Source: a virus. Taken from it: a stretch of 22,114 nucleotides of DNA. Shown piece by piece: positions 227-20,300 of this stretch. The position numbers were made by a program, and so were the translations under genes. The stretch's first letter is position 1. Every line of letters starts with the position of its first letter. Under the pieces are notes generated by a model that saw nothing but the letters and a program-made list of their open reading frames with translations, had not been told where the DNA came from and did not search any database. The stretch is from positions 1 to 22,114 of IMG/VR virus record IMGVR_UViG_3300011114_000975; one strand, given 5' to 3'.

Positions 227-392
227 AATTACCAAATCCTTTTTTTCTTTGTTGCTTAATATATTGTTTGTGAGCAAGATTTATTTTTGCACTATCTAAT
301 GATTTTTTCATATAAAGAATTTCTTCATCAGAATATAGTTCTGGATTTTGAAGTGCCTCTTGAATTAATCGAATAGTTTCTTTATATCTCAT
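204..392 (-). CDS. Small protein of unknown function (62 aa)
   Basis: I do not recognise this protein. It is a charged, probably helical peptide (MRYKETIRLIQEAL at the N-terminus, a basic KQYIKQQRKKG stretch near the end). The ATG at 392-390 is preferred to an in-frame TTG one codon upstream because it forms a one-base TGATG overlap with the stop of the gene before it, with GAGGAT as a plausible ribosome site. Its 3' end overlaps thyX by 23 nt. The tight packing between an upstream small gene and thyX supports a real gene in a thyX operon. Confidence 0.65.
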   Translation of the reverse strand: MRYKETIRLIQEALQNPELYSDEEILYMKKSLDSAKINLAHKQYIKQQRKKGFGNYENPDKI

Positions 393-559
393 CAATCCTC
401 ATCATCTTCGAACACTTCATCATAATCTCTTACATCTCCAACATAGGGTGCAATTTTTTCATACACATAAGATTCTGGACTTGAATATACTTCTGCCTTA
501 AGAGAATCAACTAGAAGTTCCAGATTCTTAATAAGTATTTTAATCTTGTCTTGATTCAT
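392..559 (-). CDS. Small acidic protein of unknown function (55 aa)
   Basis: A short ORF starting at ATG 559-557 with AAGGA nine bases upstream. The product starts MNQDKIKILIKNLELLVDSL (a predicted amphipathic helix) and ends in an acidic tail, EVFEDDED. It is the first gene after the terminator-promoter element at 583-618 and overlaps the next gene by one base (TGATG), so it heads the small operon leading into thyX. No family recognised. Confidence 0.65.
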   Translation of the reverse strand: MNQDKIKILIKNLELLVDSLKAEVYSSPESYVYEKIAPYVGDVRDYDEVFEDDED

Positions 560-582: not shown

Positions 583-611
583 ATTATATACAAAAAAAGA
601 GAGGGTGTCAA
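583..611 (-). promoter_or_regulatory. Host-type sigma-70 promoter embedded in a terminator
   Basis: On the minus strand TTGACA (611-606), a 17-base spacer and TATAAT (588-583): a full consensus match. The -35 box lies in the loop of the terminator hairpin at 599-618 and the T-tract forms part of the spacer. It would drive the two small genes and thyX. Confidence 0.8.
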
Positions 612-618
612 CCCACTC
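592..618 (-). terminator. Intrinsic terminator after the metallophosphoesterase
   Basis: Minus-strand hairpin starting two bases after the stop at 620: arms GAGTGGGT and ACCCTCTC, eight positions with one T-T mismatch, four-base loop TGAC, followed by seven T. The loop overlaps the -35 box of the next promoter. Confidence 0.8.
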
Positions 619-619
619 T

Positions 620-1327
620 TTAATATTTGAGTATTTCAAATACTCCATCTCTTTCTATAAGTGCCGAACAAGTATCCGTCCAATCACCACAACACATATA
701 AGTGATTTCATCATTCACACGAATATTTGCGTGATGAATATGTCCAACAATCACTCCATCATAAGAATCAAGTTTTCTTACAAATGAAATCAAATCGTTT
801 TCGTACTTATCAATAAACCTTTTACCTCTTGGAATTGACTTGAGAAAATTAATCAAAGAAAAACCAAAGGTCTTATTTAGAAAAATGTTGAGAGGTGTGA
901 TTGTTTCATATCCCTTATTCATAAAGTATTGCTTCCAAGAACCAGAGGAGAACTGGGAATATCTATCACCGTGAACACATAGGAACCTTTTATCTTTCTT
1001 ACTGGTGTGAATATACTCATCACAGATAACAAGATTATCAAACTTGAAAGATTTATTGTTCACATATTTTCTTGCCACTGCATCGTGATTTCCAAGAACA
1101 TAAATCACTTCTGTTCCCTTTCGGCATAACTCTAAAATCTTTTCCACTGCCCGCGTATGCCTCACTCTCCAATGTGTATTGTACTTTTCCATACAATGCA
1201 CATCAAGAATATCACCAACCATTACAAGTTTCTTGGTATCAAGTTCATTTAGAAATTTGAGAAACTTTTCAACATTACATCGGTCGGTTCCTAAATGAAC
1301 ATCGCTGATAAAAGTTGCATCGTACAT
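620..1327 (-). CDS. Calcineurin-like metallophosphoesterase (235 aa)
   Basis: A two-metal phosphoesterase. All family blocks are visible in order: SDVHLG (D9, H11), VGDILD (D39), GNHDA (N80, H81, D82), VHGD and GHIHHA (GHxH). The arrangement and length resemble the LpxH/UDP-diacylglucosamine hydrolase-like branch, which cuts phosphodiester or pyrophosphate bonds, but the substrate cannot be read from sequence; a nucleic-acid or nucleotide substrate is equally possible in a phage. The ATG overlaps the stop of the upstream 82-residue gene by one base (TAATG), implying translational coupling. The gene ends directly at a strong intrinsic terminator, so it closes its operon. Confidence 0.85.
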   Translation of the reverse strand: MYDATFISDVHLGTDRCNVEKFLKFLNELDTKKLVMVGDILDVHCMEKYNTHWRVRHTRAVEKILELCRKGTEVIYVLGNHDAVARKYVNNKSFKFDNLVICDEYIHTSKKDKRFLCVHGDRYSQFSSGSWKQYFMNKGYETITPLNIFLNKTFGFSLINFLKSIPRGKRFIDKYENDLISFVRKLDSYDGVIVGHIHHANIRVNDEITYMCCGDWTDTCSALIERDGVFEILKY

Positions 1328-4265: not shown

Positions 4266-5345
4266 TCAACCAATTTGTGGCGCAATTAAAGCAACTTCAG
4301 TAGTGGTTGCTGCTGCCAAATCTAATGGAAAATTATGTGCGTTCCTTTCGTGGACCACTTCCAGTCCCAAGTTTGCCCTATTGAGCATATCTGCCCAAGT
4401 AGGAATTGGACGACCTTGATTGTCAAGGATTGATTCATTAAAATTTAGACCGTTCAAGTTAAAAGATGAAACTGCAATACCCATAGCAGCACACCAGATA
4501 CCAAATACTGGAAGTGCAGCAAGGAAAAAGTGAAGACTACGGGAGTTATTGAAGGAAGCGTATTGAAAAATAAGACGACCGAAATACCCGTGTGCAGCAA
4601 CTATCGAATAAGTTTCTTCTTCTTGGCCGAACTTGTAACCGTAGTTTTGCGATTCATTTTCTGTTGTTTCACGAACAATAGAAGAAGTCACAAGAGAACC
4701 GTGCATTGCTGATGCCAAAGCACCACCAAAAACACCAGCAACACCTAACATATGAAATGGATTCATAAGAATATTATGCTCTGCAGAAAATACAAGCATA
4801 TAATTAAAAGTTCCAGAAATACCAAGAGGCATTCCATCACTAAAACTTCCTTGACCAAAGGGATAAATCAAGAATACAGCAGTCGCAGCAATAGCAGGAG
4901 CACTATAAGCAACTGCAATCCAAGGACGCATTCCAAGTCTGAATGAGAGTTCCCACTCACGACCAAGATAGCACCAAACACCAATCAAAAAGTGGAATAC
5001 CACTGCTTGATATGCCCAACCATTATAAAGTGCTTCATCAACAGAAGCAGCATCCCAAAGATTATAGAGATGCAATCCAATCGCATTAGAAGAAGGAACA
5101 ACAGCACCAGAGATGATGTTATTTCCCCACATTAGAGACCCAGCAACGGGTTCTCTGATGCCATCAATGTCTACAGGGGGATTTGCAATAAATGCAATAA
5201 TAAAAACCGAAGTAGCAACGAGTAATGTTGGAATCATAATGATTCCAAAATGCCCGACGTATAACCGATTATTTGTACTTGTTACCCAACTGAGGTAACT
5301 TTCCCAGGGGTTTGTTTGTCTTTGTAAGGCAATTGTAGCAGTCAT
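4266..5345 (-). CDS. psbA: Photosystem II D1 protein (359 aa)
   Basis: D1 is the photosystem II core subunit that is damaged by light and must be replaced; phage copies keep photosynthesis running during infection. The gene is complete with no intron. Key residues fall at their standard numbers: Y161, D170, E189, H190, H198, H215, H252, S264, H272, H332, E333, H337, D342 and A344, the C-terminal processing site, followed by a 15-residue extension ending APQIG. E130 is present, as in high-light D1 forms. Residue 195 is Asn (LMNPFHML) where many host D1 proteins have His. Expression is from a consensus sigma-70 promoter overlapping a late box, through a folded leader of about 150 bases; no clear ribosome site precedes the ATG. 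It ends at its own terminator. Confidence 0.99.
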
Positions 5346-5493
5346 TTGAAATAAAGGGGTAGTAAATATGAGTTCAGGAGGTGCTGAACGGTAAAAGTAT
5401 TCCTATGCAACCCTCCTGCATAGGTATGAGGACGGATTTTACTTGCCTAGTCCTGGTGCGGCAAGATTAAGAAACGTTACATTCCTTAAGACC
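5346..5493 (-). ncRNA. Structured psbA 5' leader (PhotoRC-like cis-regulatory RNA)
   Basis: The leader folds by eye into: hairpin 1, TTGCC/GGCAA (5443-5447 with 5460-5464) with a 12-base loop; an enclosing stem GTAAAA/TTTTAC (5437-5442 with 5391-5396); hairpin 2, CCTATGCA/TGCATAGG (5402-5409 with 5417-5424), perfect, loop GGAGGGT; hairpin 3, GTTCAG/CTGAAC (5372-5377 with 5384-5389), loop CACCTC. AGGAC in loop 1 is complementary to GTCCT at 5429-5433, allowing a pseudoknot, and loops 2 and 3 can kiss (GAGG with CCTC). PhotoRC-II RNAs are a known motif upstream of psbA in marine cyanobacteria and cyanophages; this is probably a member, but I have no consensus to compare against. Confidence 0.65.
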
Positions 5494-12563: not shown

Positions 12564-13357
12564 ATAATTTCGTAATCTCCAAAGTATAAATCGTTAATAT
12601 CATTATGCATTAGATTTGGACCAAACCACTTGGAAGGTGCAATAACTTTCCCCCTACCAGAAAGCCATGCACCCCACCAACTAAAAGTACTGTTTGCAAT
12701 AATAAAATCAGAGCACAAACTCATTAGACATAAATCAATATACTTTGACGACTCTGATACCATAAATCGGTCACTATGGAATATATTTTGTTTTTTACAC
12801 CAGTCTGGATCGTCAGAAAAAACAATAACTTCTCTATCATTATCAAATTTTTTTAAAGCTTTCTCATAATAATCTAATTGAAGATTATAATGATTTCCAG
12901 AATTTATCAAAAAGTCTCCTCTTCTAATATGAAGTGCTATTGGAGAATCAAAATTAGATATACTTTCTAGACAAGGTTCTAGAATATAATTTTTGAATTT
13001 TAATTCCTTTTTCAATTGGTCTTTAATATTCTGAAAATATTTTTCAGTCTGAAAATAACCAACTAAACAATAATCATAATTGGGATCTAATTGATAAACT
13101 TCTTCATTGTATGAAAATTTAGTTTCCTTGTATAATAAAGGATTATCAACATAACCAATATATTTTTCTGGAATATCAAACAAATCATAAATCATGATTT
13201 TATATCTATTACCCATTCCATCATCAAAAATTTCATCATGTTTTGGGACATAACATTCTGCTGAGTAATATTCAGATATTCCCCTAACTGAAGCAAATTG
13301 GAAAATTTGATTTCCAATTTGCCCCATTTTTCCAAGATAATTAAATCCTATTTTCAT
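12560..13357 (-). CDS. Family 11 glycosyltransferase (alpha-1,2-fucosyltransferase-like) (265 aa)
   Basis: All GT11 hallmarks are present: GKMGQIGNQIFQFA at the N-terminus, GYFQTEKYFQNIK (100-112), the donor-binding HIRRGDF at 143-149, VIVFSDDPDWCKKQ, and NSTFSWWGAWLSG near the C-terminus. The family transfers fucose (or a related sugar) from GDP-fucose to galactose. It is a paralogue of the protein encoded at 10244-11038; shared stretches such as GYFQTEKYF and FSWWGAWL suggest duplication or recruitment of the same family twice. Overlaps both neighbours by four bases. Confidence 0.87.
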   Translation of the reverse strand: MKIGFNYLGKMGQIGNQIFQFASVRGISEYYSAECYVPKHDEIFDDGMGNRYKIMIYDLFDIPEKYIGYVDNPLLYKETKFSYNEEVYQLDPNYDYCLVGYFQTEKYFQNIKDQLKKELKFKNYILEPCLESISNFDSPIALHIRRGDFLINSGNHYNLQLDYYEKALKKFDNDREVIVFSDDPDWCKKQNIFHSDRFMVSESSKYIDLCLMSLCSDFIIANSTFSWWGAWLSGRGKVIAPSKWFGPNLMHNDINDLYFGDYEII

Positions 13358-14010
13358 TGCTGACCAAAGGTATTTTGTATTTCTTCAATTAGTTTTTCAT
13401 TTGTTGAAACTACACCCAATCCATGAGAGTTGGTGAAGTTAAATTTGGGAAGTTCAATTTCAGAAAATAATCTACCAACATCATCTGGATAAGAAATTGT
13501 ATCATGAAAAACTATTACCCCATTTTTCTTCAGGAACTTTTTCCAGGTTTCATAATCATTTTTACAATTATCATAATCATGAAGACCATCAATGTGGAGA
13601 ATATCTATTTTTTTATTCCATGTACTTGCAACATCATTAAAGTATCCCTTAATTACTTTCAAATTATCCAATTTAAGTTTCTCTTTGATATCAATAACAA
13701 ATTGATAATCATCTCCAACTCGGGATTGATGATGTTCAGTTGAAAAACTATCTATACCATACACCTTTCCATTGTTGTAAATGCTCCAAACAAATAGAGA
13801 AAATCCATAGTCTACACCAAGTTCAACAGTAACTTTTGGATTTACTTTTTCAACTAACCACTTTGCAAATGAATGGTGTCCTTTTGGTGGAACGTTCCAC
13901 GCAGAAGGAATAGATCCTAATATTTCCGATACATTATCATCAAGAGATCTTACATATTGCCTCCATATATTTCCTTTATTATTAATTGCCCAAGAAAAAT
14001 TTTCAATCAT
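13354..14010 (-). CDS. Class I SAM-dependent methyltransferase (218 aa)
   Basis: Methyltransf_24-type Rossmann fold: the SAM-binding motif I is VELGVDYGFSLF (62-73), with the acidic D87 in GKVYGIDSF, then KIDILHIDGLHDYDN (134-148) and GVIVFHDTISYPD with the FHD triad at 168-170. These enzymes methylate sugars or other small acceptors in glycan pathways. As first gene of the operon it starts about 55 bases after a terminator-promoter element, with GGGAG before the ATG, and overlaps the GT11 gene by four bases. Methylation of the glycan built by the following enzymes is the simplest guess. Confidence 0.87.
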   Translation of the reverse strand: MIENFSWAINNKGNIWRQYVRSLDDNVSEILGSIPSAWNVPPKGHHSFAKWLVEKVNPKVTVELGVDYGFSLFVWSIYNNGKVYGIDSFSTEHHQSRVGDDYQFVIDIKEKLKLDNLKVIKGYFNDVASTWNKKIDILHIDGLHDYDNCKNDYETWKKFLKKNGVIVFHDTISYPDDVGRLFSEIELPKFNFTNSHGLGVVSTNEKLIEEIQNTFGQQ

Positions 14011-14069: not shown

Positions 14070-14098
14070 ATTATACAAAAAAAGATGGGTTTATGCAA
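14070..14098 (-). promoter_or_regulatory. Sigma-70 promoter of the glycosyltransferase operon, embedded in a terminator
   Basis: Minus strand TTGCAT (14098-14093), 17-base spacer, TATAAT (14075-14070). The -35 box lies in the hairpin loop of the terminator at 14083-14105 and the T-tract is in the spacer. Confidence 0.75.
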
Positions 14099-14105
14099 CC
14101 CATCT
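14077..14105 (-). terminator. Intrinsic terminator upstream of the glycosyltransferase operon
   Basis: Perfect nine-base stem AGATGGGTT / AACCCATCT, five-base loop GCATA, followed by seven T on the minus strand. Confidence 0.88.
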
Positions 14106-14133
14106 TCTGAAATTCAGGCTCGCCACCAATTCT

Positions 14134-14235
14134 TTAACTGGAAATTGGAAACCAGGCGGCAATATCCTCACCCGCACCAGTCGGCATATTTGAAGTCCAT
14201 CCGACGAGGATATATGGGGTCTTTGGATCCACCAC
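14134..14235 (-). CDS. Possible short ORF or gene fragment (33 aa, GTG start)
   Basis: From GTG 14235 the frame reads a compact peptide containing DPKTPYILVGWTSNMPTGAG, then EDIAAWFPISS. The amino-acid pattern looks like part of a folded protein rather than random sequence, but there is no ATG, no ribosome site and an in-frame stop just upstream. It could be a remnant of a larger gene. The start lies inside a perfect nine-base inverted repeat (14235-14255), which also covers the end of the gene upstream. This is the only coding candidate in the 240-base gap 14011-14250; the rest of the gap holds the terminator-promoter element and a small palindrome CTGAAATTCAG at 14108-14118. Confidence 0.3.
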   Translation of the reverse strand: MVDPKTPYILVGWTSNMPTGAGEDIAAWFPISS

Positions 14236-16747: not shown

Positions 16748-16776
16748 ATTATAAGACATAATGAGTATTATGTCAA
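16748..16776 (-). promoter_or_regulatory. Consensus sigma-70 promoter for tRNA-Gly and tRNA-Met
   Basis: Minus strand TTGACA (16776-16771), 17-base spacer, TATAAT (16753-16748). A perfect eight-base inverted repeat, GACATAAT-ACTC-ATTATGTC, covers most of the -35 box and the spacer, as an operator might. Confidence 0.8.
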
Positions 16777-18216: not shown

Positions 18217-18406
18217 GATAATCATTTAAGTATTCTAAAGTAATCACTTCATAATCTTCTTTTTCTTGTATCCATTGTTGAATTTCTTTATGTAAACATC
18301 TTGCTTCTTTTTTTCTTCCATTTTTATAATGATGTTCTATTTGTTGAATATTATATTCAACAATATCATTACATTGCATCATTATTTGTGTTTTTGTTTG
18401 ATTCAT
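18203..18406 (-). CDS. Small charged protein of unknown function (67 aa)
   Basis: Starts MNQTKTQIMMQCNDIVEYNI and continues with HHYKNGRKKEARCLHKEIQQ and an acidic end (QEKEDYEVITLEYLNDYLDK); a helical, possibly coiled-coil protein with no recognised domain. The start at 18406 is preferred over an ATG 27 codons upstream that would lie deep in the GIY-YIG gene; even so the two overlap by 38 bases in different frames. Its last codons include the -35 box of the next promoter. Confidence 0.6.
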   Translation of the reverse strand: MNQTKTQIMMQCNDIVEYNIQQIEHHYKNGRKKEARCLHKEIQQWIQEKEDYEVITLEYLNDYLDKP

Positions 18407-18830
18407 AATTAAAGTAATCTTTCCTAAAATATCTTCCAAGAATATTTGAATTATAATACCTTGGATGAATATCGTCAAGTTTTTCAATCAAAACATTATT
18501 TAAAAATAACTGTTTCGTTTCTTCATAATTAGTTTTTCCTAATGTTCTATGAAGACTTATAATCTTTCTTTCAAACTTATCTTTTCCAAATATCTTTATG
18601 TCTTCTTTGAGCTCTGGACAGCTTCCATAATAATTTTTCCAATCACTTTCCTTTTTACTTTTTCTGTTCTTTCCTTTATCCTTTGTAAAAGACCAAAAGT
18701 ACTTCCTTCCAATATAACACCGAGTATTACAAGTGTTTCGTATATGATATACAAACCCATACCAATCTTGGATATCATTTGTTTCAAAAGGTTCTTCATT
18801 ATATAACCACGGGTTTGTATAAGTTGCCAA
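18369..18830 (-). CDS. GIY-YIG-type nuclease, TTG start (153 aa)
   Basis: GFVYHI (25-30) and CYIGRKYF (38-45) give the two strands of the GIY-YIG fold, followed by a basic stretch (KDKGKNRKSKKESDW) and NYYGSCPELKEDIKIFGKDK, a pattern I associate with free-standing phage homing nucleases of this superfamily. The C-terminal half (NYEETKQLFLNNVLIEKLDD) is helical. No ATG exists in the open frame before the motif; TTG at 18830 is the only usual start codon and has no good ribosome site, so expression may be weak or the 5' end altered. It has its own promoter embedded in a terminator. Confidence 0.7.
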   Translation of the reverse strand: MATYTNPWLYNEEPFETNDIQDWYGFVYHIRNTCNTRCYIGRKYFWSFTKDKGKNRKSKKESDWKNYYGSCPELKEDIKIFGKDKFERKIISLHRTLGKTNYEETKQLFLNNVLIEKLDDIHPRYYNSNILGRYFRKDYFNYESNKNTNNDAM

Positions 18831-18894: not shown

Positions 18895-18923
18895 ATTATA
18901 GTCACAAAAAAGCACCTAGTCAA
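18895..18923 (-). promoter_or_regulatory. Sigma-70 promoter embedded in a terminator
   Basis: Minus strand TTGACT (18923-18918), 17-base spacer, TATAAT (18900-18895). The -35 box occupies the loop of the terminator at 18910-18932, and the T-tract forms the spacer. Confidence 0.8.
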
Positions 18924-18932
18924 TAGGTGCTT
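18906..18932 (-). terminator. Intrinsic terminator after the virion-like protein genes
   Basis: Perfect nine-base stem AAGCACCTA / TAGGTGCTT, loop TTGAC, followed by a T-tract on the minus strand; about 22 bases after the stop at 18954. Confidence 0.88.
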
Positions 18933-18953: not shown

Positions 18954-20300
18954 TCAATCTTCACTTAGAATTTGTTTAATCCAAGATTGACTCATATTTT
19001 CAATAATCACATTTGCATCTTCTTCTGTATCTGCGAAACCATATTCAAGTAAATGCGATTGAATGAGATCATAGAGGTCATAACTCATATTCAGTTTCTT
19101 TCTCTCATCAGGAGTCAGTCTACCTCTTTGTGCTCCTCTTGCTTTTTGCTTTGCTTTTACTTCCGGATCATCAGACATGTATGCATAACCGTGAAGACCG
19201 GGATTTGAAGAAGTGGTGTTACGGAAATCTCCTCTTTGCTTTCTAGCAAGTTTCTCTCTACCTTCTTTCTTTTTATTATCACCGAAAGTTGGTTTATCTG
19301 CTAATGCAGTTGCTTTGTCTGCAAACTCACCACCACCAGTTTGTGATGCAATCTTGTTGCGGATAGATACTTCATCATATCCAAGTTTTGCCATTTTAGT
19401 TGCTTCACCAATTGCCTTACTTCTTACTTTGCGACGATTTAGAAGATACTTATCTGACGTGTCGGTATCATTATCATTATCAATATCATTATCTTCTTGA
19501 CCTACAGGGTCAAGTTTTTTCTTTGCTTCATAGATTTCATTATAAGAATTTGAAAGGTCTCTGAGTGTTTTAGACATAGGAAATTGGTAAGAAGATGTTA
19601 CGTCACTTTTTTTAATATCAAGTGCTTTTTTAAGTCTATCGGTTTCACCAGAAGGTGTTGATGATGCTGGTTCTGCTGCTGGTGTTGGTGTTGGTGTGCT
19701 TGGTCCTCTATCATTATCAGCAGATAATCTTGTTTTAATAGTATCATATCCAGATTGTCCTGGTTTTACCTTTGCGGCAAGTGTTGGATTTGCTCTTGCC
19801 CACTGGTCCATAGGAGCACCACCCATTGGTTTTGTGGGTGCTGTTGGTGTTGCTGCTGGTCTTTGGGGTGCTGTTGGTGTTGCTGCTGGTCTTTGGGGTG
19901 CTGTTGGTGTTGCTGCTGGTGTTTTGGGTGCTGTTGGTTTTGGTTTATTCAATCCAGTCTCTTTATTGAGTCTGTTTGCCAATTTATCAGCATCAGATGA
20001 TCTTTGTAACCATTGGAAACCAGTTTCTCCATCTCTTACCCCAGAAGATTTGGTAACAAATCCTTTATTAGTTTTCACTACTCCTAACTGTGCTCTCTGG
20101 TTTGTTGCGTTTTGTTTTTTTATTTGTTTGTCATACTCTTGTCCTTGTTTATATTGTTGTGGAGTTGGTCCGTACATTGCAGCAGCAGCATCTGCAAAAT
20201 TTCCACCAGCAGGTGCCTCACTCAAAAATTCCGGTCCTTCCTCACCAGTCACTAAACCTAAGTAGATATTTCGAAGTTCGTCTAAATTCTCTTGCTTCAT
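18954..20300 (-). CDS. Virion-associated protein, low-complexity centre and C-terminal EYGFA module (448 aa)
   Basis: Probably a structural or scaffold-like protein of the particle; this rests on composition and on recollection of similar proteins in cyanophages. It has a helical N-terminus (MKQENLDELRNIYLGLV), a glutamine/lysine-rich part, a Pro-Ala-Thr linker made of 10-residue repeats (PAATPTAPQR), another proline/serine-rich section, an acidic DNDIDNDNDTDTSD run and a basic segment. The last 42 residues (YDLYDLIQSHLLEYGFADTE, EDANVIIENMSQSWIKQIL) resemble residues 190-230 of the upstream gene product. No enzymatic motif is seen. A late box lies 26 bases before the ATG, as expected for virion genes. 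Confidence 0.75.
   Translation of the reverse strand: MKQENLDELRNIYLGLVTGEEGPEFLSEAPAGGNFADAAAAMYGPTPQQYKQGQEYDKQIKKQNATNQRAQLGVVKTNKGFVTKSSGVRDGETGFQWLQRSSDADKLANRLNKETGLNKPKPTAPKTPAATPTAPQRPAATPTAPQRPAATPTAPTKPMGGAPMDQWARANPTLAAKVKPGQSGYDTIKTRLSADNDRGPSTPTPTPAAEPASSTPSGETDRLKKALDIKKSDVTSSYQFPMSKTLRDLSNSYNEIYEAKKKLDPVGQEDNDIDNDNDTDTSDKYLLNRRKVRSKAIGEATKMAKLGYDEVSIRNKIASQTGGGEFADKATALADKPTFGDNKKKEGREKLARKQRGDFRNTTSSNPGLHGYAYMSDDPEVKAKQKARGAQRGRLTPDERKKLNMSYDLYDLIQSHLLEYGFADTEEDANVIIENMSQSWIKQILSED
19831..19943 (-). repeat. 30-base tandem repeat in the coding sequence
   Basis: Two exact 30-base copies (19861-19890 and 19891-19920), with a close copy before and a partial one after, encode the PAATPTAPQR repeats. 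Prone to length change by slippage or recombination. Confidence 0.85.

Follow-up and report, generated by a model that had tools for sequence, protein, structure and literature searches.

Can one short stretch of DNA both end the transcript of one gene and start that of the next? The question is raised by three sites in the window, by which we mean the whole stretch of 22,114 nucleotides analysed here, a 22-kb fragment of a T4-like cyanophage. The initial annotation had described, on the minus strand, three terminator hairpins with a -35 box in their loops, and the three sites are indeed present (621-583, 14108-14070 and 18932-18895), each with a hairpin and a T-tract around a -35-like hexamer. 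The genes of interest all lie on the minus strand, and the window further holds a ferritin-like protein, tRNAs, a tail lysozyme domain and a SegE-type homing endonuclease. The features that matter for the argument are the following.

392..559, minus: gene downstream of device 1, 55 aa, phrog_878 (unknown function)
583..588, minus: device 1, candidate -10 TATAAT, 17 nt from the -35
596..621, minus: device 1, predicted terminator hairpin AAAGAGTGGGTTGACACCCTCTCTTT, then T-tract, -11.8 kcal/mol
606..611, minus: device 1, candidate -35 TTGACA at the hairpin apex
620..1327, minus: gene upstream of device 1, calcineurin-like phosphoesterase
4266-5345, minus: psbA
13357-8642, minus: glycosyltransferase cluster, headed by a methyltransferase
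13354..14010, minus: that methyltransferase (Methyltransf_24), first gene past device 2
14070..14075, minus: device 2, candidate -10 TATAAT, 17 nt from TTGCAT
14080..14108, minus: device 2, predicted terminator hairpin AGAAGATGGGTTGCATAAACCCATCTTTT and T-tract, -16.1 kcal/mol
14093..14098, minus: device 2, weak -35-like TTGCAT at the apex, 3/6 consensus bases
14112..14213, minus: wcaG RNA (RF01761), Rfam covariance model score 67.6 bits, cut-off 42
18369..18830, minus: gene downstream of device 3, SegE-type GIY-YIG homing endonuclease
18895..18900, minus: device 3, candidate -10 TATAAT, 17 nt from the -35
18910..18932, minus: device 3, predicted terminator hairpin AAGCACCTATTGACTAGGTGCTT and T-tract, -12.0 kcal/mol
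18918..18923, minus: device 3, candidate -35 TTGACT at the apex
18954..20300, minus: gene upstream of device 3, 448 aa

Two other elements of the window may be mentioned here. A PhotoRC-II RNA (RF01717) lies at 5389-5479 on the minus strand, immediately upstream of psbA. Besides, a perfect TTGACA-17-TATAAT promoter (16748-16776, minus) adjoins the 3' end of tRNA-Thr; it contains the palindrome ACATAATACTCATTATGT, and the same 29 bases are found in S-SRM01 at 184631.

The sequence check placed TATAAT 17 nt from the -35-like hexamer in all three copies. On the strand that carries the upstream gene, each copy also displays the features of an intrinsic terminator, namely a GC-containing hairpin and, after it, a T-tract. 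The location of the hexamer in the loop had to be qualified: it sits at the apex in every copy, but part of each hexamer is paired in the stem, the predicted loops being TGAC in copy 1, GCATA in copy 2 and TTGAC in copy 3. None of the shuffled sequences folded as stably as copies 1 and 2, and 1 of 200 did so for copy 3. In device 1, the stem includes one T-T mismatch and the outermost bases of the hairpin share the TAA stop codon (622-620) of the upstream gene. The match to a sigma70 promoter (hexamers 16-18 nt apart) reaches 12/12 for copy 1, 11/12 for copy 3 and 9/12 for copy 2, which by itself is a weak promoter candidate because its -35 matches the consensus at three of six bases.

Based on these features and on the comparisons below, we propose that the sites are probably fused boundary elements of T4-like cyanophages, in which a terminator and a sigma70 early promoter reside on the same DNA. 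The RNA of the upstream gene would fold as an intrinsic terminator and halt in the T-tract, and the same DNA would serve as a host-type sigma70 (early) promoter whose -35 coincides with the hairpin apex and whose 17-nt spacer is occupied, up to the -10, by the descending arm and the T-tract. Two adjacent co-directional genes would thereby be parted in about 45 bases, the least space, with the downstream gene receiving its own early promoter. The start is predicted about 7 nt past TATAAT, which leaves the hairpin upstream of it. The hairpin would therefore act on arriving transcripts only and never on the transcript that the device itself initiates; an attenuator of its own transcript was rejected on this ground for all devices. 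We infer that RNA polymerase terminates and initiates at these sites in the infected cell, where a promoter-bound and an incoming polymerase could presumably not occupy the site simultaneously. The further suggestion of the initial annotation, that transcription coming from upstream might disturb or time the promoter, is a conceivable consequence of this layout.

How often such nesting occurs was evaluated by locating terminators and promoters independently in ten cyanophage genomes: Syn9, S-PM2, P-SSM2, S-SM2, S-RSM4, S-CRM01, S-SZBM1, DSL-LC03, S-SRM01 (nearly all of it) and S-CREM1 (most of it). A loose nested-hairpin scan with a low cut-off was too noisy, scrambled motifs being nearly as productive in several genomes, and strict terminators with apex offsets were therefore used. 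A promoter was considered nested when it matched at least 10/12 with its -35 centre at most 3 nt from the hairpin apex; the score thresholds were set for this analysis, and all counts given here and below include related, non-independent sequences. Two of the nine strict terminators of the window have such a promoter centred on their apex, against a mean of 0.06 for permuted motifs. Across the ten genomes, the comparison with scrambled controls that the initial annotation had suggested gave a positive result, with an apex-centred sigma70 promoter in 15 of 400 strict terminators versus a mean of 1.10 and a maximum of 5 for 100 scrambled motif pairs. The majority of the early-type promoters and of the terminators in these cyanophages are un-nested. 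The pattern TTGACA-N8-TTTTT-N4-TATAAT was also searched in public viral contigs, where nested hairpins were found in 43 of 117 distinct sequences among the matches listed, versus 4 of 106 for a control pattern with the T-run early in the spacer (Fisher 2e-10) and 12 of 119 for the same pattern in bacterial and archaeal genomes (Fisher 1e-6), again among the matches listed. Among those matches, 37 of 44 nested viral contigs were closest to cyanophages within the set of phages compared, which did not include pelagiphages.

The arms of the hairpins offer a second line of evidence. Junctions upstream of segE and of phrog_878 were picked by gene, without regard to hairpins. At the segE junction, 27 of 40 distinct promoters contain a nested hairpin (300 shuffles of the 3' arm gave a mean of 8.5 and a maximum of 15), and hairpin scores are bimodal, either at least 18 or at most 12.5; at the phrog_878 junction, the proportion is 36 of 50 (mean of 15.1 and maximum of 22 with the same number of shuffles). 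At most stem positions both partners change, while the hexamers and the -10 persist. As an illustration, in a hand-picked and mostly hairpin-bearing alignment all seven pairs (7/7) are altered on both sides, and the covariation score of this set, 0.726 versus 0.287 for shuffled arms, exceeds that of every slid register. Arms that change between viruses and yet still pair point to selection maintaining both functions, and it is this comparison across viruses that backs the initial idea of one stretch serving as terminator and as the next promoter. Selection would keep the two hexamers, -35 and -10, and the ability of the arms to pair with each other, leaving the stem sequence free. That the three copies are not plain repeats, as was noticed at the outset, is borne out as well: since the -35 and the -10 persist beside stems that differ and covary, we consider the element as a device, and a simple repeat element was rejected. 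Three phrog_878 promoters keep a pyrimidine-rich and T-rich spacer and have no 5' arm; they are possibly precursors or decayed forms.

Could a simpler cause account for this arrangement? T-tracts and TATAAT arise easily where DNA is AT-rich, and the overlap might be fortuitous in a compact genome of this kind, but permuted motifs, arm shuffles, the control pattern and cellular genomes all yield far fewer cases. Chance is thereby refuted for the class, for which its probability is close to nil, although individual weak copies could still be chance products. The dyad is centred on the -35, and the -35 region is a usual place for a repressor, so a symmetric operator binding a regulator instead of terminating transcription has to be envisaged. 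The stem sequence is, however, unconserved (11 and 17 distinct inner arms), and the 94 dyads centred on a -35 are one-sided, with a T-tract downstream in 68 and an A-tract upstream in 6. This polarity argues for directional terminators and not for operators; an operator dyad was ruled out by the variable stems and the polarity, and we find it scarcely credible.

Two further readings of the device were considered, a cassette for recombination and the recycling of polymerase. At the segE junction, a homolog of the 448-aa gene of the window is found upstream in all 27 distinct hairpin-bearing cases (27/27) and in none of the 10 hairpin-free cases with a readable upstream gene. The upstream genes stop 25-38 nt ahead of the -35 in each of the 27 distinct nested junctions, and in the 10 readable hairpin-free junctions other genes are found, often ending at the -35 itself. 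The promoter therefore travels with segE, and the hairpin with one particular neighbour. The persistence of the segE promoter beside differing upstream genes would suit an element acting chiefly as a short homology for gene swapping, a role in line with the shuffling in T4-like phages reported for promoter-early stem-loops (PeSLs) in work cited in PMC4503421. Nevertheless, the stems vary from copy to copy in the window and from phage to phage, which makes the shared sequence short, arm covariation is not explained by recombination, and S-PM2 reportedly lacks the high density of PeSLs seen in other T4-like phages, a recombination role being judged unlikely there (PMC4503421); we hold such a cassette to be very unlikely. 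Alternatively, a polymerase terminating in the T-tract may drop its RNA, stay on the DNA over the next promoter and reinitiate there, in which case upstream activity would feed downstream initiation. Single-molecule work has revealed that E. coli RNA polymerase usually remains on DNA after intrinsic termination and can restart at nearby promoters (PMC6978380), and the predicted termination point is a few bases from the -10, near the shortest possible distance. Against this, nesting is equally predicted by space saving alone, and RB49 holds its terminator and promoter about 30 nt apart, so we regard recycling as unlikely, if worth keeping in mind. The stronger proposal that nesting hands the terminating polymerase straight to the promoter, in a gene relay where the end of each transcript would set off the following one and which would be under RNA control after wcaG, seems to us rather improbable.

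Three side observations deserve mention. At S-PM2 124309, P-SSM2 142801 (regA) and S-RSM4 3664, the upstream gene ends on the very TGA that is found within the -35 hexamer, and the same bases are common to stop codon, terminator loop and promoter. At six loci, another layout is observed in which a small hairpin such as AACTGGCAAAATCCAGTT adjoins the -35 on its upstream side, followed by a spacer that is C-rich then T-rich, and next by TATAAT. Finally, the homing endonuclease of S-SRM01 at 179396-179827 is annotated on the minus strand, although a segE-like leader with a nested promoter directly precedes it on the plus strand (179336); the strand of the endonuclease may be mis-annotated.

Device 2 raises a question of its own, as its hairpin begins three bases past the end of the wcaG RNA, here located ahead of a sugar-modification cluster. 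In passages of PMC2864571, wcaG is proposed as an RNA that may regulate exopolysaccharide and high-light genes in cis, and these passages make no mention of a terminator and promoter directly after it. Among 15 instances of wcaG (the window and 14 in isolates and contigs), 10 are directly followed by a hairpin that encloses a -35-like hexamer, the apex reading TTGCAT, TTGTCA, TTTACA or TTGACA, and then by TATAAT (once TATGAT). Such a hairpin was not found directly after wcaG in Syn9, S-PM2, S-RSM4, S-SZBM1 and one member of a tandem pair, and the T-tract is poor in S-CREM1 and one contig. For device 2 only, the hairpin might serve as attenuator, or expression platform, for a candidate wcaG riboswitch, TATAAT being a minor or accidental promoter. 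The 3-nt distance, the 3/6 match of the -35 and the regulatory role proposed for wcaG (PMC2864571, in the passages mentioned) speak for it. Conversely, five other wcaG cases (S-CREM1, DSL-LC03, S-SM2 and two contigs) have TTGACA, TTGTCA or TTTACA at that place together with TATAAT or a near match, and the folded terminator stands beside the wcaG helices with no obvious competing pairing. An attenuator is a plausible reading of device 2, to which we give somewhat less than an even chance; this hairpin may otherwise mark where a small RNA ends, or may be a plain boundary element.

If the fused boundary element is taken as described, it provides a simple grammar by which gene boundaries can be searched for in viruses that abound in marine and fresh waters, and in which an RNA signal and a DNA signal would be kept on shared bases while the sequences diverge. 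This suggests that separate annotation of promoters and terminators in cyanophages would overlook the joint element. Besides, these sites may offer a natural test system for polymerase recycling after termination, and the wcaG link bears on the role of that orphan RNA.

The closest known relatives are the PeSLs, reportedly described in RB49/phi1 and other T4-like phages by Arbiol et al. in 2010 and Comeau et al. in 2014. As in PeSLs, a predicted early sigma70 promoter (with a weak -35 in copy 2) is combined with a predicted terminator stem-loop in the intergenic space of a T4-like phage. The geometry is different: in the 150 kb of RB49 that were read, none of 48 terminators is nested and 10 have a -35 located 20-46 nt downstream of the apex, most at 29-32, a tandem layout with the -35 about 30 nt past the apex, whereas the -35 of the window devices is the apex. 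The cyanophages contain 15 nested and 5 scattered tandem cases. Moreover, unlike PeSLs, the window copies have no long common sequence, their stems vary and just short tracts are shared. As for gene shuffling at segE, the promoter persists with varied upstream genes and the hairpin is tied to one upstream gene family. A study of S-PM2 that sought PeSLs placed promoter and stem loops at separate locations (PMC4503421). In the literature searched, which excluded Arbiol 2010 and Comeau 2014, we found neither the loop-nested layout, its unconstrained but covarying stems, its occurrence across cyanophages or its connection with wcaG, nor any mapping of cyanophage transcript starts.

Other systems share part of the design. 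Post-termination recycling (Kang et al. 2020, PMC6978380) is a mechanism by which the closeness of terminator and promoter would matter, although it was studied in vitro, with separate signals and with E. coli polymerase. The wcaG RNA (RF01761) is common to device 2 and nine other cyanophage cases in which a hairpin device comes right after it. In T4, neither the nested layout nor those of KVP40 or RB49 were seen. KVP40 has five terminators with a -35 in the ascending arm, and its intergenic repeat AAAGGGTTGACNNNNGTCAGCCCTTT followed by TATTAT resembles the window devices in having the -35 TTGAC inside a hairpin ahead of the -10; it differs in that the -35 belongs to the ascending arm (offset -4), that the stem sequence hardly varies among the copies found and that the T-tract is weak. 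A joined promoter and terminator between genes of T4-like phages is already known from the PeSLs, of which the loop-nested layout is a variant.
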